Source of the DNA: Spiroplasma phoeniceum P40
Lineage (GTDB): Bacteria; Bacillota_I; Bacilli_A; Mycoplasmatales; Mycoplasmataceae
Direction of reading: 5' to 3'
Assembly: GCF_003339775.1 (NCBI RefSeq)
Contig: NZ_CP031088.1
Location: forward strand, 558,001 to 622,000
Length of the DNA: 64,000 bases
Shown here: positions 3,016-42,296 of the stretch, in pieces
Layout of the letters: each line of letters opens with the position of its first letter
How positions within the stretch are numbered: position 1 is the stretch's first letter
Notes under the pieces: model-generated
The model's input: only the letters and a program-made list of their open reading frames with translations
Database searches by the model: none
Told to the model about the DNA's origin: nothing
Made by a program: the position numbers and the translations under genes

Positions 3016-3864
3016 TTATTTAACATAATCTTCAACTCATTCCAATGAAATTGCGGGAATTTTCTTCCCTTTTTTAATATCTTCTAAAAATTTAGCACAT
3101 AGAAGTAAATTATCGGTTGTTTCACTATCAGGTAAAGATAAATTTGTTGTCATTAATTTAATAAATTCTTTAACAATTTGTTTTACTGATGATTTTGGTT
3201 GAATTCGAACACTATATGCTGTTTCTAATTTTTTTTGATATTTTGTTAATAACAATTGGAATGCTTTAATTGCTACTATTTCTGTATTATCCTCTATTTT
3301 AAAAAGTCCTAAAATTTGTGTATTTCAATAAACATCTGGTTGAGAAAAATTAATCCCTGTAATTGGTACTGTGTCAATAAATTCAACATTATTATAACGA
3401 TAAATTTTTTCACGGGTAAAAAATATTCCTCTTCCTTTTTCAAATTTTTCATTATTATCAAATATTTTTTCTAATAAAAGTTCTTTATTACTATCTGGTA
3501 AACTAATAATTAATATCTTCTTATTAGCATACTTTTTTAAAAGTTTCTTAAAATTGGCTAAACACCTATGATATTCTTTACTAGTTTGCTCTTCATGACA
3601 TAATAACATTTGACAATAAATTTCTTGGCTATGATAATATTCCATTCATTTTTTTGTTTGCTCAACATCAGCTTTTTGTGTGTTTGAAAATAAAATTATT
3701 CTTTTCACATCATTTAATTTCGCATAATTTAAAAGATTAGCACCAGAATGTGCAATTCTTGCATCAACTACTTCAATAATAACATCAGCTGTTTCAGCAA
3801 GTTTATAAACCCTCTTATTATTTTTAATAAATTCTTTGGGAATTGAAAATTTCTTATCACACAT
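3016..3864 (-). CDS. Divergent RbgA-like protein with degenerate GTP-binding loop
   Basis: A 282-residue protein that aligns along its length with RbgA. The N-terminal DVIIEVVDARIAHS matches the family segment, and a weak G4 (SNTQKAD) follows. The G1 loop is replaced by SLPDSNKELL, lacking GxxxxGKS, and DTPG becomes DTVPI. It therefore probably does not bind GTP in the usual way. It has a good RBS (AAGGAGG) and an intact frame with two UGA-Trp codons, so it looks maintained rather than dead. The job is unknown; a ribosome-linked role is inferred only from the neighbouring rbgA and rplS. Confidence 0.75.
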
Positions 3865-3904
3865 AATTGTGTTTCCTCCTTGTGTTATTATTTTAATACA
3901 AATT

Positions 3905-3927
3905 AAAAATACTTTATCAGTATTTTA
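3905..3927 (-). terminator. Likely terminator after rplS
   Basis: An 8-bp AT-rich stem (AAAATACT / AGTATTTT) with a 5-nt loop lies just past the rplS stop, followed on the minus strand by a short T-rich tail. The weak stem makes this moderately sure. Confidence 0.5.
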
Positions 3928-3930
3928 GGG

Positions 3931-4287
3931 TTATTTTGTTTTAATAATCTCTTTAATTCGAGCAGCTTTACCAGTTCGATTACGCATGTAATAAATTCTA
4001 GCACGACGAACTCGTCCATATTTTACAATTTCAATCTTATCAATTAATGGCGAATGTAAAGGGAATTTTCTTTCAACGCCAGTTCCATTACTAATTTTAC
4101 AAATTGTAACTGATTCTGCAATTCCGCTACCTTGTAACTTAATTACTACTCCTTCAAAAGCTTGAATTCTAAACTTATTTCCTTCCTGGATTTTATAATG
4201 TACTTTAATTGTATCTCCTGAAGAAAATTGTGGCAAATCACTACGAAGTTGATCTTTTGTAATTTCTTCTGTTAAATTCATCTTCAT
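3931..4287 (-). CDS. rplS: 50S ribosomal protein L19
   Basis: A 118-residue L19, a large-subunit protein at the 30S-50S interface. It shows the family segments [28 protein letters not shown] and [12 protein letters not shown]. An AAAGGAA ribosome site precedes ATGAAGATG; the first ATG is used here, the second could also serve. It is the last gene of the rpsP-khpA-rimM-trmD-rplS operon. Confidence 0.97.
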
Positions 4288-4311
4288 AACTTTTTTTCCT
4301 TTCTACGGTCG

Positions 4312-5043
4312 TTAAACCTTTTTTTCGTTTTTAATTTTTTCTAATAATATTTGTTGTTCTGTGGTTAAATTTTTTTTTTCTAAAAGGTCGGGACGTTTTA
4401 ATCAAGTTTTTTTTAATGCTTCATATTCTCGTCATTGGGCAATTTTCTGATGATGACCACTTAATAAAACTTCAGGAACATAATGGCCATCATATTCAAC
4501 TGGTTTTGTATAAACAGGATAATCTAATAGATTGTTAGAAAAAGAATCATTGAGATGTGATTGTGTATTAATTACATTTTCACATAAACGAGTAACACTA
4601 TCAATTACAACCATACTAGCTAATTCACCGCCAGTTAAAATATAATCACCAATTGATAATTCATAATCAATATAATATAAAATTCTTTCATCAAAACCTT
4701 CATAATGCCCACAAACTAAAATTAAATCATTATCATTTGCTGCAAATTGTTGCACTTGTTCTTGCACATATTGCTTACCTTGTGGTGTTAACAAAATTGT
4801 TACACTGTCTTTTGTTTGGTGAGCTTTAATCGCTGCTACTAATGGTTCAATCATTAAAACCATTCCTTCACCACCACCATATTGGTAATCATCAACTTGA
4901 TGATGTTTGCCAATGCTATAATCACGAATATCAACAATTTTAATTGCAATTAATTTTTCATAAAGTGCTTTTTTAATAATTGATGTTGTCATAAAATTAT
5001 TGAACATTTCTGGAAATAAAGTTAATACTGTAAACTTTTTCAT
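4312..5043 (-). CDS. trmD: tRNA (guanine37-N1)-methyltransferase
   Basis: TrmD makes m1G37 next to the anticodon and prevents frameshifting. The 243-residue protein starts MKKFTVLTLFPEMF and carries the SAM-binding trefoil-knot motifs LVCGHYEGFDER and IGDYILTGGE, which are hallmarks of the family. The C-terminal part reads through UGA-Trp codons to a TAA at 4312. It follows rimM with a 1-nt gap, indicating translational coupling. Confidence 0.97.
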
Positions 5044-5044
5044 T

Positions 5045-5536
5045 TTAAATAACCTTTTTTAAAATAATTTCTTGTTGTTGCAGATCAACTTGTTCAACAT
5101 ATGCATCAACATTTGGAATCATCATTAATGTACCATCTGTTGTTTTAATTTCAAAAACAAGATGTGCCTTAGTTTCAAATTGATTTACTAAAATCCCAAT
5201 TTTTTTTTGATTATGAAAGACTGTAAAATTAATTAAATTTTCCTGATTAATAACTTCTGTATAATTCAAATCTGCTTTTTGAGCAAATAAATAGCATTCT
5301 TTAAAAGCTATTACCTCATTAATATTAGTAAACTCTTTAAATTTTAAAATATAATCTTGCTTAGTAGCAGTAATTTTAATTAATGTTACTTGCGTATACA
5401 TCATTTGAACTTGAATAAACATTAATTTATTAAGCAATTTATTTATATTTTTAATGTTTATTAATAAAGTTGCTTTAAGTTCACCTTTAATTGCATGGGG
5501 CTTTTTAAGTTTAAAAATTTTTAACAAAGTTTCCAT
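5045..5536 (-). CDS. rimM: Ribosome maturation factor RimM
   Basis: A 163-residue protein with the RimM layout: an N-terminal domain (KKPHAIKGELKA, matching the family G-x-x-G-E-x-K pattern) and a C-terminal PRC-barrel-like region ending in MIPNVDAYVEQVD. RimM binds S19 and assists 30S head assembly. The N-terminal domain is diverged, as usual in mollicutes. Position between khpA and trmD supports the call. Confidence 0.9.
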   Translation of the reverse strand: METLLKIFKLKKPHAIKGELKATLLINIKNINKLLNKLMFIQVQMMYTQVTLIKITATKQDYILKFKEFTNINEVIAFKECYLFAQKADLNYTEVINQENLINFTVFHNQKKIGILVNQFETKAHLVFEIKTTDGTLMMIPNVDAYVEQVDLQQQEIILKKVI

Positions 5537-5788
5537 CTATAAAACCTCAAACTTAATATTAACTTTATTTTGATCAACATGTGCTCTAATATTTAATAAA
5601 GTTCTTAAGCTATTAGCAATTAATCCTGCTTTACCAACAACATATCCTAACACTTCTTCATTACACATTACTAATAAATTAATTTCTCCTACATTTGTCG
5701 ATGGCATTTGACGAATTTCATAATATAATTCATTATCATCCTGACAAATTAACGGATTAATTAAATTTTTAAGTTCAGTAATATACAT
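5537..5788 (-). CDS. khpA: KH-domain RNA-binding protein KhpA
   Basis: An 83-residue single KH domain with the GxxG loop as VVGKAGLIANSLRTLL. KhpA binds RNA, often with KhpB, and is normally encoded between rpsP and rimM as here. The frame is compact and abuts rimM, with stop and start codons adjacent. Confidence 0.88.
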   Translation of the reverse strand: MYITELKNLINPLICQDDNELYYEIRQMPSTNVGEINLLVMCNEEVLGYVVGKAGLIANSLRTLLNIRAHVDQNKVNIKFEVL

Positions 5789-5813
5789 TAATTAACACCA
5801 CACTTAATTACAA

Positions 5814-6173
5814 CTATTTTTTGGCATCTGTTGTTGTCTTTGCCTTCGGTTTCTTTGTTAAGTTTGCTTTTTTATCTGTTGCTGCCTTTTCTTTTGTACT
5901 CTTTGTTGTTTTAGCAGCATATTTTTCATTATGCAATTTAGTCATTAAGCCTTCTTTACTTAACAAATTACGAACAGTATCAGTTGGTTGTGCTCCTGTT
6001 AATAATCATTTGTAAGCAAGATCATGATTAATTTTTACATCACCATTAATAGGATTATATGTTCCAATTAACTCAATATATTCTCCATCACGTTTGACAC
6101 GAGCATCTGTTGCAACAATTCGGTAGAATGATGCTTTCTTTTTACCTATTCTTTTTAAACGTAATTTTACCAT
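5814..6173 (-). CDS. rpsP: 30S ribosomal protein S16
   Basis: A 119-residue protein starting [20 protein letters not shown], the typical S16 N-terminus, with the family core [14 protein letters not shown]. The start at 6173 is chosen over an upstream in-frame ATG because AGAAAGGAA lies 8 nt before it. The C-terminus has an extra Lys/Ala/Thr-rich tail of about 35 residues, common in spiroplasmas. First gene of the operon. Confidence 0.96.
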
Positions 6174-6232
6174 TAATAATTTCCTTTCTAATTCTGCGTT
6201 CATGTTAAACTATAAAACTTAACATCCTTTAT

Positions 6233-6260
6233 ATAATACCTGAAATTAAAAAAGAGTCAA
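6233..6260 (-). promoter_or_regulatory. Promoter of the rpsP operon
   Basis: On the minus strand, TTGACT (6255-6260) and TATTAT (6233-6238) are separated by 16 bases, and rpsP starts about 60 nt downstream. This is the best sigma-A-like promoter at this locus. Confidence 0.6.
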
Positions 6261-6275
6261 GTTTTTTAACTTAAC
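6249..6275 (-). terminator. Probable terminator after the membrane-protein pseudogene
   Basis: GTTAAGTT-AAAA-AACTTGAC on the minus strand forms a stem with one mismatch and is followed by TCTTTTTT. It overlaps the -35 of the rpsP promoter, so the end of one unit and the start of the next are packed together. Confidence 0.5.
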
Positions 6276-6306
6276 ACTTTATTTTTTGCTAATCATATTT
6301 TCCTTC

Positions 6307-7139
6307 TTAAGGAAAATCATTTTTAAAAACATTTAACACTGATTGTGTAATAAAAACATCTTTTTTATGTAATGTCATCCCTTTTCCACTAATTCCAAAT
6401 ATTTTTTCATTTACCCGTTTGTTTAATGTTTCGCCTTGATATTTAGAATGTAACTTATTATTTAAAAAAATATATAAATATTGTAAACCAATGAATAAGG
6501 TTAAAATACAAATAAAAGAAAAAGTTAAAATTAATCACCCCCATTCTTGAAACACATTAAGAAAAAAAATAATGATATCAAGTATCAGGTGGTCTTTTTT
6601 CTAAATTACGCAGTGTTCCTCGAATTAAAATTACAATAAAATAACAAACTGGATAAATTAAAATTAATCATAATGCTAATTTATAATGTTGTTTTAAATT
6701 ATATTCAAAAGTCCCGACTGTTAAAATATAACTAATAATCATACTAATTGGAATTACTAAGTGCAAAACAATTGTCGATATTCAAGCATATACATTGTAT
6801 TGATTAGCATCTTGTGTACTTGTAAAAATTACAAGTCAAAAAACTACCATTGTAATTGTAATATATATTGTCACAGCTAATTTAATTAAATAACTAGGAC
6901 TTTGAATTTTAAACTTGTTTTCAAATAAATAAATGAAAAAATAAACAGCAACAATATAATTAGTTTGCGTTGTAAAAAAACGAATAATAATTTGATACTC
7001 GTTCTGCATATCCTAAATCACGAAATTGAGGTTGTGGACTAATTATTGCTAACACTAAATCAGTAATTAAAAAAAATAAAATTAAAAATAAAACACTTAA
7101 TCGTACATAAAATAAAATTTTAGTATTTCACTTTAACAT
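6307..7139 (-). pseudogene. Multi-pass membrane protein, frameshifted twice
   Basis: A strong RBS (AGGAGG) precedes ATG 7139. The protein begins with a hydrophobic segment and then shows several further membrane spans (e.g. YIVAVYFFIYLFE, LALWLILIYPVCYFIVIL). The frame breaks near 6975-6985 and again in a T8 run near 6570, where removing one base restores YHYFFLNVFQEW. The C-terminus after the last span is polar. The layout recalls small mollicute integral membrane proteins; no function is assigned. Both breaks are single-base changes, so sequencing error is possible. Confidence 0.55.
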
Positions 7140-9545: not shown

Positions 9546-9668
9546 CTAAGTCATTTTTTCATATAGATTGCTCCTTTTTATTGTTTTATATATAATTGAT
9601 ATGTGATAAAATCAATTATATATAAAACAATAAAAAGGAGCAATCTATATGAAAAAATGACTTAGCAT
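9543..9668. repeat. Perfect palindrome, 58-nt arms and 10-nt spacer
   Basis: Bases 9543-9600 are the exact reverse complement of 9611-9668, around the spacer 9601-9610. The right arm is the promoter region, RBS and first codons of the lipoprotein gene; the left arm is the same DNA inverted and fused to the broken ATPase gene. Confidence 0.95.
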
Positions 9669-10065
9669 AATAGGAGCAATTGGATTAACCGCAACAAGCA
9701 CAACAACATTAATCAGTTGTAAAAAAGAAAATAATAATGAAAACGGTGGAGGGGATAATAAACCAGAACCACAATATAATCCACAACAACCACCAGAAGG
9801 TAGTAATTGAAAATTAATTAATTATAAAGATGTTGATATAAATAATAATAATGAAAAATATTATTTTGGAATTAGAGTTTATGGTTCTGTTAATAATTGA
9901 ATACCTTATGGTCCAATAAAAGGTAAAGAAATTAAACAAATTTCAAACTTTTATGGTTGTAAAGCAATTTATCGCTGAGATGGTGATAGTCAACCCGAAA
10001 CACCAACCATTGATAAAAACACTGGTGAAATTACTGACTGAAAAGAACAAAAAGGAACTGAATAA
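9649..10065 (+). CDS. Virus-linked lipoprotein, variant 1
   Basis: A 138-residue lipoprotein with a signal peptide (KKWLSIIGAIGLTATS) and a lipobox LISC, so Cys24 should be lipidated and the protein surface-anchored. A Asn/Gly/Pro-rich linker (ENNNENGGGD...PQQPPEG) leads to a variable domain (residues about 53-120) and a constant C-terminus TPTIDKNTGEITDWKEQ. The leader and tail match copies at 33825 and 39661, but the middle is different. Promoter and RBS lie in the right arm of the palindrome, and a terminator overlaps the stop. Function unknown; a surface-exclusion role is proposed in the findings. Confidence 0.8.
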
Positions 10066-33290: not shown

Positions 33291-33316
33291 GGAACTGTTA
33301 TTAAGAAGTTCCTTTT
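33291..33316. terminator. Terminator between convergent fragment and lipoprotein
   Basis: GGAACTG/AAGTTCC hairpin with T tracts, an altered version of the hairpins at 10054 and 40102. Confidence 0.65.
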
Positions 33317-33825
33317 TGTTCTTTTCAGTCAGTAATTTCACCAGTGTTTTTATTAATGGTTGGTATTTCTGGTTCATCAACGCCATCTCAACGATAAACA
33401 GACTTAAAATAAGTTCCATCATCTTGTGACCAAGATGTTACAGGTCTTACAGCCCCTATTTTAATACGAAATAAGTTATCGCCCACTCTTGTTAATGCTA
33501 ATTCATAATCTTCTTGTGTATCTAAAACTTTTCTTTTTTCTGAAAAATTAATATTTGGAAATTTAATAATTCTTCAATTATCATTTTCATCACCACGCCA
33601 CACAACAAAATATCATTTATTATCAACTGTATTAAACGGTTTATCTTGTGCTATAACTTGTTTTCAATTACTACCTTCTGGTGGTTGTTGTGGATTATAT
33701 TGTGGTTCTGGTTTATTATCTTCTCCACCGTTTTCATTATTATTTTCTTTTTTACAACTGATTAGTGTTGTTGTGCTTGTTGCGGTTAATCCGATTGCTC
33801 CTATTATGCTAAGTCATTTTTTCAT
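33301..33825 (-). CDS. Virus-linked lipoprotein, variant 2
   Basis: 174 residues. Same signal peptide, LISC lipobox and proline-rich linker as variant 1, but another domain: PFNTVDNKWYFVVWRG, NWRIIKFPNINFSEKRK, FKSVYRWDGVDEPEIP, then the constant NTGEITDWKEQ. This domain, not that of the other plectrovirus lipoproteins, resembles the tailed-phage moron lipoprotein. It diverges from a transposase gene across a shared 115-bp promoter region. Confidence 0.82.
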
Positions 33826-36115: not shown

Positions 36116-37576
36116 GCTCCTTTTTATTGTTTTATATATAATTGATTTTATCACATATCAATTATATATCAATTATTCGTATTAAATATTAATTTTATAT
36201 ATTTTTGATGGTAGGTGTAAATTAATGAAATATATTATTAATAATTTTAATTTGTTTGATTTACAAGCAAAATTAAAGAATTTTTTAAGTAAAAATTATA
36301 AAAATAAATATTATAAAAGAATAAAACAAAAAATATTTTCATATATTAATTTGTGTAATGATTATTATAATGGTAATTTTTTTTGAAAGATTTAATTAAA
36401 AAATATTTTAAAAATAAGTTTTCAACTTTTTATTATTGAGCGAATAAAATTTTAATTGCATATAAAAATAATGATTTTGCTGAATTATTATTAAAGTCAA
36501 CAATTCCTAATAATATTAATTATCAATATAGTGATGATATTCGCAAAATTATTTGTGATTTATATTTTGAATATTGTAATAAACATGCTGGTGGTGTTTT
36601 ATCTTTGTTTTATAATTTAAAAAAAGGAATTCATGGAGAAGAATTAAAAAATAAAGCACCAAAAAATTTAAAAACATTTTTTCGTTGACTTAAAAAAGAT
36701 GAAAGATGATTAAAAATAAAAAATAAAATTAAAGAAATTAAAAAACAACATCCAAGATATGAAGTTAAAGAAATAGGTTTGTTACAGATGGACGCTAAAT
36801 ATTTTGTACCAAGTAAATTTCCAGTTGATAAAAAGTATTATGTTTATGATTTTATTGATGAAAAAACAAGATTAGCATTAGGATATGTTTATGATAAATT
36901 AAGTACTGATAATGCTATTGATGCTGTTAAAAAAGCAATTAGTGATTTTAAAAATATATTTGATATTATAATAACACGGATTAGAACTGATAACGGTTCT
37001 GAATTTATTAATAATTATCGGAATAATCAAAAAATTAGTGTTAAAAAGACTAATTTTACTCAATTTTTAACAGATAAAAATATTTTGCATCAAACAACAC
37101 CAGTTCGCTCTCCACAGTCAAACGGTAAGATTGAAAGATTTCATCAAAATTATACTAAATTATTTGTATTTGAAGAAAAAATATTAAATGCAGTTAGTTT
37201 ACAGAATAAATTAAATGATTATTATTATTTTTATAATTTTGAAAGAGTACATAAGTCTTTAAATTTTCAGACACCATTTAATTTTTTGAATAGTTTAAGT
37301 TTAATTAAATAATTTTAAATTATTAAGTTTTTGTGTTTAAACTAAATAAGTTTATTATATTTTAATTAATTAATAATATGTAAATTAACTCATAAAATAT
37401 GTTATTAAAATAATAAAATATGTATTTATTAATTAAAATTTAATAAATTATTTTTTAGTGTGTTTAATTTTATATTTTTTATTTATTTATTTTATGATAT
37501 TTTTTTATTATAAATAAATATTTTTATTATTTTTGTTATTTTCTTGTAATCTTTAAAATGTGTGTGGTATACTACA
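36116..37576 (+). mobile_element. Transposase element, copy B
   Basis: About 1.46 kb, inserted in the ATPase gene; begins ATTGCTCCTTTTTATTG and ends GTGGTATACTACA. It lacks the lipoprotein gene that accompanies copies A and C but keeps its promoter region. It is nearly identical to copy A, so movement is recent. Confidence 0.75.
36225..37312 (+). pseudogene. DDE transposase, copy B, -1 frameshift in T8
   Basis: As copy A, but the poly-T tract after NDYYNGN is T8 (36377-36384), one base short. The downstream catalytic part (MDAKYF, RTDNGSEF, SNGKIERF) is complete. 1088 nt compared with 1089 in the intact copy C. Confidence 0.8.
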
Positions 37577-38191: not shown

Positions 38192-38455
38192 TGTAGTATA
38201 CCACACACATTTTAAAGATTACAAGAAAATAACAAAAATAATAAAAATATTTATTTATAATAAAAAAATATCATAAAATAAATAAATAAAAAATATAAAA
38301 TTAAACACACTAAAAAATAATTTATTAAATTTTAATTAATAAATACGTATTTTATTATTTTAATGACATATTTTATGAGTTAATTTACATATTATTAATT
38401 AATTAAAATATAATAAACTTATTTAGTTTAAACACAAAAACTTAATAATTTAAAA

Positions 38456-39544
38456 TTATTTAATTAAACTTAAACTATTCAAAAAATTAAATGGTGTCTG
38501 AAAATTTAAAGACTTATGCACTCTTTCAAAATTATAAAAATAATAATAATCATTTAATTTATTCTGTAAACTAACTGCATTTAATATTTTTTCTTCAAAT
38601 ACAAATAATTTAGTATAATTTTGATGAAATCTTTCAATCTTACCGTTTGACTGTGGAGAGCGAACTGGTGTTGTTTGATGCAAAATATTTTTATCTGTTA
38701 AAAATTGAGTAAAATTAGTCTTTTTAACACTAATTTTTTGATTATTACGATAATTATTAATAAATTCAGAACCGTTATCAGTTCTAATCCGTGTTATTAT
38801 AATATCAAATATATTTTTAAAATCACTAATTGCTTTTTTAACAGCATCAATAGCATTATCAGTACTTAATTTATCATAAACATATCCTAATGCTAATCTT
38901 GTTTTTTCATCAATAAAATCATAAACATAATACTTTTTATCAACTGGAAATTTACTTGGTACAAAATATTTAGCGTCCATCTGTAACAAACCTATTTCTT
39001 TAACTTCATATCTTGGATGTTGTTTTTTAATTTCTTTAATTTTATTTTTTATTTTTAATCATCTTTCATCTTTTTTAAGTCAACGAAAAAATGTTTTTAA
39101 ATTTTTTGGTGCTTTATTTTTTAATTCTTCTCCATGAATTCCTTTTTTTAAATTATAAAACAAAGATAAAACACCACCAGCATGTTTATTACAATATTCA
39201 AAATATAAATCACAAATAATTTTGCGAATATCATCACTATATTGATAATTAATATTATTAGGAATTGTTGACTTTAATAATAATTCAGCAAAATCATTAT
39301 TTTTATATGCAATTAAAATTTTATTCGCTCAATAATAAAAAGTTGAAAACTTATTTTTAAAATATTTTTTAATTAAATCTTTCAACAAAAAATTACCATT
39401 ATAATAATCATTACACAAATTAATATATGAAAATATTTTTTGTTTTATTCTTTTATAATATTTATTTTTATAATTTTTACTCAAAAAACTCTTTAATTTT
39501 GATTGTAAATCAAACAAATTAAAATTATTAATAATATATTTCAT
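38456..39544 (-). CDS. DDE transposase, copy C, intact
   Basis: 362 residues. N-terminal basic helical region, then an integrase-type catalytic domain with LLQMDAKYF (Asp190), RIRTDNGSEF (Asp256) and SPQSNGKIERFH (Glu304), and YNFERVHKSLNFQTPF near the C-terminus, as in IS3/IS481-like enzymes. The tract after NGN is TTTTTTGTTG, not pure T, and the frame is open. It diverges from the lipoprotein gene and ends the provirus. Confidence 0.88.
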
Positions 39545-39660
39545 TATTTTACACCTACCATCAAAAATATATAAAATTAATATTTAATACGAATAATTGA
39601 TATATAATTGATATGTGATAAAATCAATTATATATAAAACAATAAAAAGGAGCAATCTAT

Positions 39661-40113
39661 ATGAAAAAATGACTTAGCATAATAGGAGCAATCGGATTAA
39701 CCGCAACAAGCACAACATCATTAATTAGTTGTCAAAAACCAAATAATAATGAAAACGGGAAAGGAGATAATAAACCAAAACCATCATATAATCCACAACA
39801 ACCACCAAAAGATAGTAATTGAAAATTAATTCCTAGGGTTAATGATGTTTTAGTACCACCCAAAATAATTGCTTCTACTGATAAAAATAAATATGTAAAA
39901 GAAGATGATAGGAAATATATTGTAATTTATCCATATCTAATCCAACAATGAAACATAATTAAAAAAGATGCAAAATATATTAATAATACCGCAGCATGAA
40001 GTTCAAAAGCAATAATTTATTATTGAGATGGTGATGGTGAACCCGAAACACCAACCATTGATAAAAACACCGGTGAAATTACTGATTGAAAAGAACAAAA
40101 AGGAACTGAATAA
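39661..40113 (+). CDS. Virus-linked lipoprotein, variant 3
   Basis: 150 residues with the common leader, LISC lipobox and Pro-rich linker, then the domain RVNDVLVPPKIIASTDK ... AAWSSKAIIYYWDGDGEPET and the constant TPTIDKNTGEITDWKEQ. Bases 39816-40091 repeat, inverted and almost base for base, 41474-41748 inside the viral adsorption-protein gene. Shares its promoter region with the transposase, and its terminator with the adsorption gene. Confidence 0.85.
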
Positions 40114-40124
40114 CAGTTCCTTTT

Positions 40125-42296
40125 TTATATTAATCGCACAAATTTCATAAAAATAATTAATAAAAAGATATTTGTTATTGTACTATACAATGCTGGATTA
40201 AATTTTCATACCTCAAATATTTGACTAAAAAAACTATATACTGTTTCAAAAACCTTACCAACACCACTCGCTAATTCATTAACTTGTTTAACACCAGGAA
40301 TAGTATTGACAATTCAAATCACCGCATTTTTAATATGAGCACCAAAATCTCATCAACCCTCTGGCGTTACATATTGCACTTGTCATCATTGTTTATCGGG
40401 GAACAAACCACCATTATTAATCTCTTGTCAGTTATAAATTCCAAAATTAAAATCATAATATCGGTACATATCATTCTCTTTTTGTGCTTGCAATTCAAAA
40501 ACATTATAACCGATTTTTTGTTCTTCAATTTTTTTATATTGCAAACCATATTTATTTTGTAAATCACCGCCAAAAACATAACCCGAATTTGACTTAATAT
40601 TATAATTATTAGCAACCGAAAAATCATAATTAAAAACACTACCATAATTATTAATCGTATAAAACCGATTTTTAAATGCTGAATATAATTTAATATCTAA
40701 CTGTTTATATTTATCTGAAAAATAAAAATATCGTGGGTAAATTTTAAAACCATTATTTACTAATAAACCATATTTTTTATTATAACCTTGAACATAAGTA
40801 TTATTCTCTAAATCAAAAATCGTACGTAAATAATTAGTATAAAATTTCTGTGAAATCTTAAACATACTATTTAATAATTTATCAAATTGTAATTTATCGT
40901 TAATATTTTCACTCAACAAAATATTATTAAAATTTTGTAATTTCAAAGCAAAAAAATTAACTAAAACAGTATCATACTGTAAATTATCAATATATCCATT
41001 TTCAATAAACGAACTACGATTTTGAAACACTGGCACCAACGCACTTGCAAAAAACGACTGTAAAAACTTAGATAAATCAAACTGACCGCTAAACTGTTGA
41101 TAATATTTTAAATCTTTACTATTTAATGATGAATAAATTGAACCATTAAAATTAAAAACTTCACCCATTCCCGTTCGCATAAAACTAAAATTAAAACTTA
41201 AATCATCATTATTAATATTATTTAACTCTAAACTACCAGAAATAATTAAATTTGCTTCATCAACAGTCAAAATCATTCGATAAATTGCTTTTTTAATATT
41301 TTTAACATCCAACTCATCAACCGTCTCAAAATCAAAAATTATCCGCTTTGTACCAACCTTATTCGGATTTTCATAATCCGCACTACCACCTTGCTGAACC
41401 CTAGTATTTTCTAGCAAAACAGAATATAAAAATAAACTAATAAATTCTTTTACACGAGTTTGTTGATAACTATTTCAGTCAGTAATTTCACCGGTGTTTT
41501 TATCAATGGTTGGTGTTTCGTGTTCACCATCACCATCTCAATAATAAATTATTGCTTTTGAACTTCATGCTGCGGTATTATTAATATATTTTGCATCTTT
41601 TTTAATTATGTTTCATTGTTGGATTAGATATGGATAAATTACAATATATTTCCTATCATCTTCTTTTACATATTTATTTTTATCAGTAGAAGCAATTATT
41701 TTGGGTGGTACTAAAACATCATTAACCCTAGGAATTAATTTTCAATTATCTACTTTCAACTTAACTCTTGGATAATGATTTTCTTTATAACGATCAACAT
41801 TCTCCACAATTTTTTTAGATACATCATACATCTTATATTTTACAGCAAAGGCATAAATAAAATCAGTTAAATCATTCAAAAAATTCTCTCTTTTAACATC
41901 ATAAAATTTTTCAACCATATACCGATTTTTTAAACTATGTCATTGTTGATAATAATTCAAAAATACTTCATTAGGTTTATCATAAACAACTCCGGTGGAA
42001 TAACTATCTTGTAAAAAATCTAAATACCATTTATCATTAAACAATAAATTTTTTGATGTTTTTAAAGTTGGATTAATAAAATAATTTGTTTCCGACCAAT
42101 TTTCAAAAAAACTACTGCGTAAAAACATTGTATTAATAAAATCAGTTTCATTAATACCTTTACCAGTAATATTCTCTTGTTTAAGCGTATAATGCTCCTC
42201 ATTTAAGGGTCTAAACGCCGTTAAAGTAATAAATGGAATAACCAAACCCAAAAAAGTTAAAATAAATATGGCAAATAAAGATAACGATTTTTTCAT
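40125..42296 (-). CDS. Plectrovirus adsorption/minor coat protein (ORF1)
   Basis: 723 residues, intact. N-terminal signal or span (LSLFAIFILTFLGLVIPFIT), a variable domain at about residues 183-275 (NWKLIPRVNDV ... DGDGEHETP), a long beta-rich body (QGGSADYENPNKVGTKR), and a C-terminal membrane anchor (NIFLLIIFMKFVRLI). This layout is that of pIII-like proteins, which bind the host and cap the filament. It partners a lipoprotein carrying the same domain. Partial copies are at 10077 and 32957. Confidence 0.82.

Follow-up and report, generated by a model that had tools for sequence, protein, structure and literature searches.

The adsorption protein of Spiroplasma plectroviruses (ORF1) and a lipoprotein encoded tail to tail with it share a domain that is hypervariable between viruses, and the two copies of one virus mostly carry the same allele. 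The interpretation that we favor, with a probability of about 0.6, is that the receptor-binding domain of the virus is presented by the lipoprotein on infected cells, which keeps out viruses of the same allele. We infer here that the domain binds a receptor and that the lipoprotein is expressed, exposed at the surface and able to block infection.

In the window (the whole stretch of 64,000 nucleotides under analysis, part of a 1,791,576-nt contig of genome G000), a repeat search detected two inverted arms of 276 nt which are 99% complementary and lie 1381 nt apart (Table 1). Self-BLAST of this locus (L064) gives 99.275%, that is, two differences, one of them CCCGAA/CACGAA (Pro/His). Both arms encode the same domain of about 90 residues, in frame in the lipoprotein gene (residues 53-143 of 150 under translation table 4) and in ORF1 (under the same table). 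An inverted repeat and a domain common to both proteins had been described in an earlier note on this DNA, and both are real. The repeat is far above chance and is no single case. The two genes are convergent, with 11 nt between their stop codons. The terminator-like hairpin was called on the minus strand, the plus-strand T-run is seen in the sequence, and the record of SpV1-R8A2B has a putative terminator annotated at the matching place. GGAG stands just upstream of 41 of the 81 lipoprotein starts in related loci, many of the others having purine-rich variants. Counted across the region as a whole, promoter-like matches show no excess over shuffles (12, against a mean of 9.8 and a standard deviation of 3.4). 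Beside the lipoprotein, two transposase (ORF3) regions form a second inverted repeat (36377-37576 and 38192-39391, 1200 nt, 100% complementary, 615-nt spacer), which is a rearranged provirus end.

Table 1. Position, strand and basis of the features discussed in the window
Feature	Position	Strand	Basis
Lipoprotein gene, 150 aa: signal peptide with lipobox LISC, linker, variable domain	39661..40113	+	ORF (translation table 4), family alignment
Lipoprotein signal peptide through presumed lipidated Cys24	39661..39732	+	sequence; lipobox assigned by eye
Variable domain copy 1 (inverted-repeat arm)	39816..40091	+	repeat search, translation
Variable domain copy 2, within ORF1, residues about 184-274	41473..41748	-	repeat search, translation
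ORF1, plectrovirus adsorption protein family (DUF3688), 723 aa	40125..42296	-	PF12461, phrog_14869
Hairpin with T-run between both stop codons, covering the last codons of the lipoprotein	40097..40125		probable shared terminator
Extended -10 promoter-like site TTGATA-16-TAAAAT upstream of the lipoprotein	39597..39624	+	consensus match only
Ribosome-binding site AAAAAGGAG of the lipoprotein gene	39644..39652	+	sequence
ORF3 transposase, same provirus, divergent from the lipoprotein	38456..39544	-	PF00665, E 3.7e-14
Second family lipoprotein, adjoining a truncated ORF1	9649..10062	+	homology
Third family lipoprotein, adjoining an ORF1 remnant	33304..33825	-	homology

The identity of ORF1 is clear from its matches to PF12461 (residues 47-723 on profile positions 2-692 of 692, E = 1.1e-251) and to phrog_14869 (1499.9 bits); the ICTV profile text states an adhesion role for g1 of the plectrovirus SVTS2 (PMC8295915). 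The provirus belongs to Vespertiliovirus (SpV1-type plectroviruses), as its transposase ORF3 adjoins ORF1 and its similarity to SpV1-C74 and SpV1-R8A2B is high: in the lipoprotein-ORF1 stretch, DNA identity to these two viruses and to SkV1-CR2-3x is 88-92% with 86-100% coverage. The lipoprotein has a signal peptide that, judged by eye, ends in a lipobox with a cysteine, and this residue (C24) is invariant in a family alignment of 33 rows which were chosen by a pattern requiring such a cysteine. RefSeq gives the name "lipoprotein" to a homologue encoded beside a DUF3688 protein on the S. citri plasmid NZ_ON511090, where the domains of the lipoprotein and of the neighboring ORF1 are 79.6% identical. 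No Pfam family matches the lipoprotein of the window at E <= 1, and its PHROG matches (phrog_20608, weakly phrog_806 and, because of the shared domain, the ORF1 family phrog_14869) are all families of unknown function. By its pN/pS of 0.46, the lipoprotein N-terminus is under constraint. The predicted structure of the window lipoprotein was discarded (mean pLDDT 55.5). A short-allele domain from locus L200 was predicted as a five-stranded all-beta module (pLDDT 85.5); fold searches with it found no match at E <= 0.001 in PDB or BFVD, the best VIA-align hit had a Z of 3.2 over 54 residues, and no fold was assigned.

Covariation of the two domains, the check proposed in the earlier note, was evaluated in 38 distinct viruses (a filter dropped L129 and identical lipoproteins). 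The mean identity of own lipoprotein-ORF1 pairs is 92.2%, versus 37.6 +/- 2.0% and a maximum of 47.5% in 10,000 permutations. The best match of the lipoprotein domain is the virus's own ORF1 in 36 of them; the other two are R8A2B and L138, the latter being 93.0% identical to its own ORF1 and 95.3% to that of L093. Own-pair identity is at least 70% in 43 of the 50 loci where the lipoprotein is intact and the ORF1 frame exceeds 330 aa. The remaining seven comprise four ORF1 frames without the domain (L075, L077, L121 and L147), one that starts inside it (L070) and two real mismatches, R8A2B and L129. A parse of the alleles in the loci of nine genomes yielded 44 clusters at 60% identity, one of them a pattern artefact. 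It had 8 of 52 parsable loci mismatched; the calls for L114-L117 were rejected as pattern artefacts (own identity 90.7-98.7%), which leaves 48 of 52 matched and L078, L101, L103 and L129 mismatched.

The variability between viruses is concentrated in the shared module. In the 153 pairs formed by 18 S. citri-type viruses, identity averages 0.29 in the core of the domain, versus 0.95 in the C-terminal part of ORF1 (ORF1 C) and 0.76 in its N-terminal part (ORF1 N). The core has a pN/pS of 0.55-0.63, higher than the 0.26 of ORF1 C (for the core within ORF1, at 0.63, Fisher p = 1.4e-5). This ratio does not reach 1, nor is its excess over ORF1 N (p = 0.11) or over the lipoprotein N-terminus (p = 0.18) significant.

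By profile search, PF12461 is present in 9 of the 14 Spiroplasma genomes and was not found in any of the 46 other genomes of the family. The stretches around ORF1 or lipoprotein matches in these nine genomes (97), together with C74, R8A2B and SkV1, make up a set of 100 loci that includes near-duplicates such as L033/L111 and L095/L096. Inverted arms of 120 nt or more with 85% identity or better are present in 71 of the 100 (70 by a k-mer method), counted in these surveys without a locus-by-locus check that they lie on the domain; the identity seen in the window, which would have told against the earlier idea had it been unique, is thus widespread. The gap between the arms has a median of 1381 nt (10th-90th percentile 1347-1487), or 1453 nt with k-mers, which trim the arms. 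Among the 30 loci that have no repeat by k-mers, a pattern search found the domain in both genes of four (L078, L101, L103 and L129) and in one gene or none of the others; R8A2B (L032), where that search found no domain, is a fifth true mismatch by pairwise comparison. A complete lipoprotein frame and an ORF1 frame longer than 330 aa stand tail to tail in 50 loci, which were selected for the convergence of both frames and derive from seven of the nine genomes plus R8A2B and SkV1; their stop codons are 10-29 nt apart in 49 cases and 174 nt apart in one. In the two remaining genomes, G011 and G012, a lipoprotein match adjoins a partial or interrupted ORF1. A scan with ORF1 gave 3 loci in IMG/VR and 13 in genome contigs; neither the lipoprotein alignment nor the MaM-like protein discussed below yielded confirmed loci in IMG/VR. 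Annotation of the repeat itself exists already for SpV1-C74 (244/246 nt) and SkV1-CR2-3x (291 nt, one annotated arm being shifted by 139 nt from the arm found here), but the records of R8A2B, C74 and SkV1 contain no lipoprotein CDS and do not state the pairing rule.

Some further observations were made in these loci. In SpV1-C74 (L031, 4074-4489) the lipoprotein frame is broken inside the domain, which may be real or a sequencing error of an old record. Near several plectroviral lipoproteins of G000 (L077, L079, L080 and L083) there is a frame of about 309-339 aa, some 30% identical to the C-terminal part of ORF1 and perhaps from another type of plectrovirus. In a 709-aa protein of G011 (L167, 2968-5097), the variable domain (PF12461 match 83-228) is combined with a spiralin domain and, by eye, a C-terminal membrane helix; the variable domain may thus also occur in a host surface protein.

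The two copies within a virus are kept equal at the DNA level. In 43 matched viruses, their synonymous sites (pS 0.007, 10.6/1487 sites) are as equal as the nonsynonymous ones (pN 0.008, 56.4/6835), which points to gene conversion, since purifying selection alone would not have this effect. Gene conversion had been proposed in the earlier note, and both these values and the recombinant junctions described below support it. Nine pairs of allele-sharing viruses, non-overlapping and hand-picked from the 18-virus comparison, show a pS of 0.005 between the copies within a virus, versus 0.09 for the same gene between viruses and 0.27-0.29 in the flanking parts. Core pS is below that of ORF1 N and ORF1 C in eight of these pairs, the exception being L100/L116 (0.29-0.33 versus 0.19-0.22). 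L092 and L154 come from genomes of two different species; their core pS is 0.00 in both genes, versus 0.42-0.51 in ORF1 N, in the ORF1 C segment between the copies and in the lipoprotein N-terminus. In this clear case of exchange between species, both copies were replaced and the segment between them was not.

Products of crossover between the arms also exist. In L099, ORF1 N is fused via the domain to a lipoprotein-type tail within an inverted repeat of 1315 nt; in L124, the lipoprotein start is joined to ORF1 C; and in L146 the upstream part is of ORF1 type and the tail of lipoprotein type. A similar fusion occurs in another element, L178 of the S. citri genome G002, where the lipoprotein start is fused via the domain to another protein in an inverted duplication of about 2.2 kb whose flanking proteins received no database name. 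Among 185 scored junctions, which include overlapping loci (L099 and L178 were found by reading and stand outside the count), 181 are parental and four are crossovers, two of these being one locus counted twice. Both orientations are thus not common, as they would be in an invertible-segment switch for phase variation.

The isolated virus SpV1-R8A2B is informative because its pair is mismatched, with allele 11 in ORF1 and allele 8 in the lipoprotein. Over 3707-6645 it shares 99.7% identity with provirus L100 of genome G002, and its ORF1 domain (6598-6849) shares 97.6% with a lipoprotein locus of the same genome (L175). From these similarities, R8A2B appears to be a cassette swap in which only one of the two genes has yet changed. 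It shows that a mismatched virus is viable and makes a requirement for the hairpin as DNA less likely. The presence in S. citri G002 of an open lipoprotein gene with the ORF1 allele of R8A2B is a difficulty for exclusion, unless that gene is silent.

The lipoprotein and, in several cases, the matched pair are also found outside plectroviruses. In phage MaM-2019a, known from three S. poulsonii clones, a lipoprotein of the family converges at 27 nt on a protein of 1067-1073 aa that follows the portal gene, is called "hypothetical" in the record and is labeled tail protein by us; the annotations of a terminase, a portal and a head-tail connector indicate a tailed-type dsDNA phage. No copy of the domain was detectable in the adjacent protein of the three phages (best own-pair E 0.09). 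In three MaM-like elements (L161 and L162 of G011, L172 of G007), the domain replaces the end of the MaM-like protein and forms with the lipoprotein a convergent matched pair, its arms of 307-314 nt being 99.4-99.7% identical to those of the lipoprotein. In L172 a single open frame of 780 aa spans the MaM-like protein and the domain; in L161 and L162 the MaM-like frame is interrupted upstream of the domain. L163 has kept the MaM-type end, and its lipoprotein is unmatched. Matched pairs of 298, 273 and 240 nt (97.5-99.3%) occur with proteins of three further elements, L164, L165 and L174. The repeats of L161, L162, L165 and L172 were missed by the self-BLAST survey and the survey at >= 120 nt and found by direct alignment and a k-mer scan. 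The mature lipoproteins of these elements are homologous to the plectroviral ones (best E 2.5e-17 to 9.7e-51), so related alleles occur in different phage types. The partner proteins of the MaM-like elements and of the L164, L165 and L174 types had no Pfam family over the cut-off and no informative PHROG beyond the domain. The recurrence in other types of phages is the strongest argument for a function of the pairing at the level of the proteins. As a separate observation, the lipoprotein of L161, L162, L165, L166, L170 and L174 (G011 and G007) often adjoins a secreted-looking protein beginning MKKLLSLLSVLTI, in which beta-propeller repeats are Pfam matches for L165 and L166 and were recognized by eye for L174; the two genes may possibly constitute a surface operon.

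The earlier note held that the lipoprotein domain had been copied from the adsorption protein. Copying could have gone in either direction, since the MaM-2019a lipoproteins have no detectable copy in their neighbor and the ORF1 domain of R8A2B matches a lipoprotein gene of S. citri. As a whole, the interpretation given in that note is partly supported.

The scenario that we favor is as follows. The shared module, of about 70-115 aa, would be the receptor-recognizing hypervariable domain of ORF1 on the virion, and the lipoprotein would expose the same allele at the outside of the infected cell, which has a single membrane, and would there occupy the receptor which that allele binds. Virions of the same allele would then be unable to superinfect the cell, and would not be wasted by attaching to the cell that produced them. 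Such an allele-specific protection would select for new alleles on the virion together with a matching lipoprotein, and recombination between the inverted copies could restore the register once one of them had been replaced. This masking of the receptor explains the presence of one allele on virion and cell, the turnover of alleles and the benefit of re-matching. It is supported by the matching in 43 of 50 loci, the limitation of hypervariability to the module, the joint replacement in L092/L154, the constraint on the lipoprotein N-terminus, the matched pair in other phage types and a gene position like that of the T5 lipoprotein discussed below. The reported link between SVTS2 resistance in S. 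citri and integrated viral DNA (Sha 1995, cited in PMC8140453) also counts in its favor, at a discount as it concerns another plectrovirus. The mismatch of R8A2B, the absence of a copy from MaM-2019a, the broken frame of C74 and a core pN/pS below 1 tell against it, and the interruption of the MaM-like frame in two of three elements makes it slightly less likely. Two population comparisons, each on a prediction of this scenario, gave null results. Proviruses of the same allele are not rarer within a genome (21 of 600 pairs, permuted mean 22.0) than between genomes (46 of 1230), where copying within a genome could hide a depletion. In decayed proviruses, lipoproteins do not outlast ORF1 (41 of 55 lipoproteins are intact, as are 28 of 55 ORF1 C parts, a decay per codon of 0.0020 versus 0.0016; the pattern used probably calls L127 broken despite an open frame of 182 aa, which leaves the outcome unchanged). 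This latter result argues against a lasting benefit for the host cell, not against one for the virus.

Other scenarios may be considered. The domain might bind itself, and the lipoprotein would then trap virions that carry its allele, as a decoy or to hold them for spread from cell to cell. Such homophilic recognition would account for the matching of alleles as well as receptor masking does, and also for the closeness of the match, but in MaM-2019a the protein encoded next to the lipoprotein would offer it no partner, and we regard this scenario as improbable. A somewhat smaller chance is given to the lipoproteins being silent or secondary copies that feed domain alleles to ORF1 and have no role in the cell. 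The crossover products and the similarity of the R8A2B ORF1 domain to L175 would fit such an archive, an ORF1 of that allele being an equally possible donor. Nevertheless, the own lipoprotein mostly has the same allele as the own ORF1 and thus offers its virus no novelty, the signal peptide and the ribosome-binding site are kept, and the lipoprotein N-terminus has a pN/pS of 0.46.

The repeat could also act as DNA, as a hairpin of the single-stranded genome in packaging, replication or integration, or as an inversion switch between its arms. The match indeed extends to synonymous sites, as a hairpin would require, the spacing of the arms is similar among loci, and the repeat is annotated in C74 and SkV1. 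Yet R8A2B, which weakens this idea more than anything else, was isolated as a virus without it, the same pair occurs in elements with tailed-phage genes, the arms coincide with an in-frame protein module of both genes and crossover configurations are rare, all of which makes a role as DNA very unlikely. The least credible of these explanations is lysogenic conversion, in which prophage lipoproteins aid the interaction of the spiroplasma with its insect or plant host, as has been suggested for S. glossinidia prophage lipoproteins in general (PMC12408004); it leaves unexplained why the allele of the lipoprotein tracks that of the neighboring virion protein and why gene conversion equalizes the pair.

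A broader possibility is an allele-specific self-exclusion module common to unrelated Spiroplasma phages, ssDNA plectroviruses and tailed-type dsDNA phages alike. One recognition domain would have two displays, the receptor-binding domain of the virion and the lipoprotein at the cell surface sharing an allele from a trans-species pool; gene conversion would keep them in register, and swaps of the R8A2B type would change the allele and open cells that were closed to the parent. We place this broader proposal at just under even odds.

Superinfection exclusion by a small lipoprotein encoded beside a receptor-binding protein is known from T5 (PMC9586334). The gene of T5 Llp is adjacent to and downstream of that of pb5 (PMC9586334), as the lipoprotein here stands beside ORF1, and Llp and the Cor proteins of T1 and phi80 are likewise small phage lipoproteins made by the infected cell from a gene adjoining that of the receptor-binding protein. 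Unlike the Spiroplasma protein, Llp is periplasmic and acts allosterically on FhuA, and what PMC9586334 says about it includes no mention of a domain shared with pb5. The filamentous phage Pf4 also shuts its receptor, with the virion proteins pVII, pVIII and pIII, but pVII acts on type IV pilus proteins and a separate lipoprotein with a duplicated domain is not part of the description in the relevant sections of PMC11436027. In contrast to Llp and Cor, the Spiroplasma lipoprotein bears the hypervariable domain of the virion protein itself, and its host has a single membrane. Another parallel is receptor interference by endogenous retroviral envelope proteins, where the infected or host cell itself produces a receptor-binding domain that takes up the receptor, so that viruses of that receptor group are kept out. 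These are eukaryotic retroviruses, however, and we know of no case of retroviral interference with an inverted duplication that is kept equal by gene conversion inside one virus. Lipoproteins of Spiroplasma prophages have been noted before and read as factors of host adaptation (PMC12408004); no report of a lipoprotein that carries the variable domain of a receptor-binding protein and is equalized with it by gene conversion was found in searches of openly licensed literature.

A review of 2022 describes the significance of the viral sequences in spiroplasma cells as currently unknown (PMC8779666). Receptor masking, if true, would provide a mechanism by which integrated plectroviral DNA accompanies resistance to viruses, as reported for SVTS2 (cited in PMC8140453). 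It would also represent a phage form of receptor interference with its own code of allele recognition, present in unrelated phages of a single genus, and the sequence would predict which virus enters which strain.
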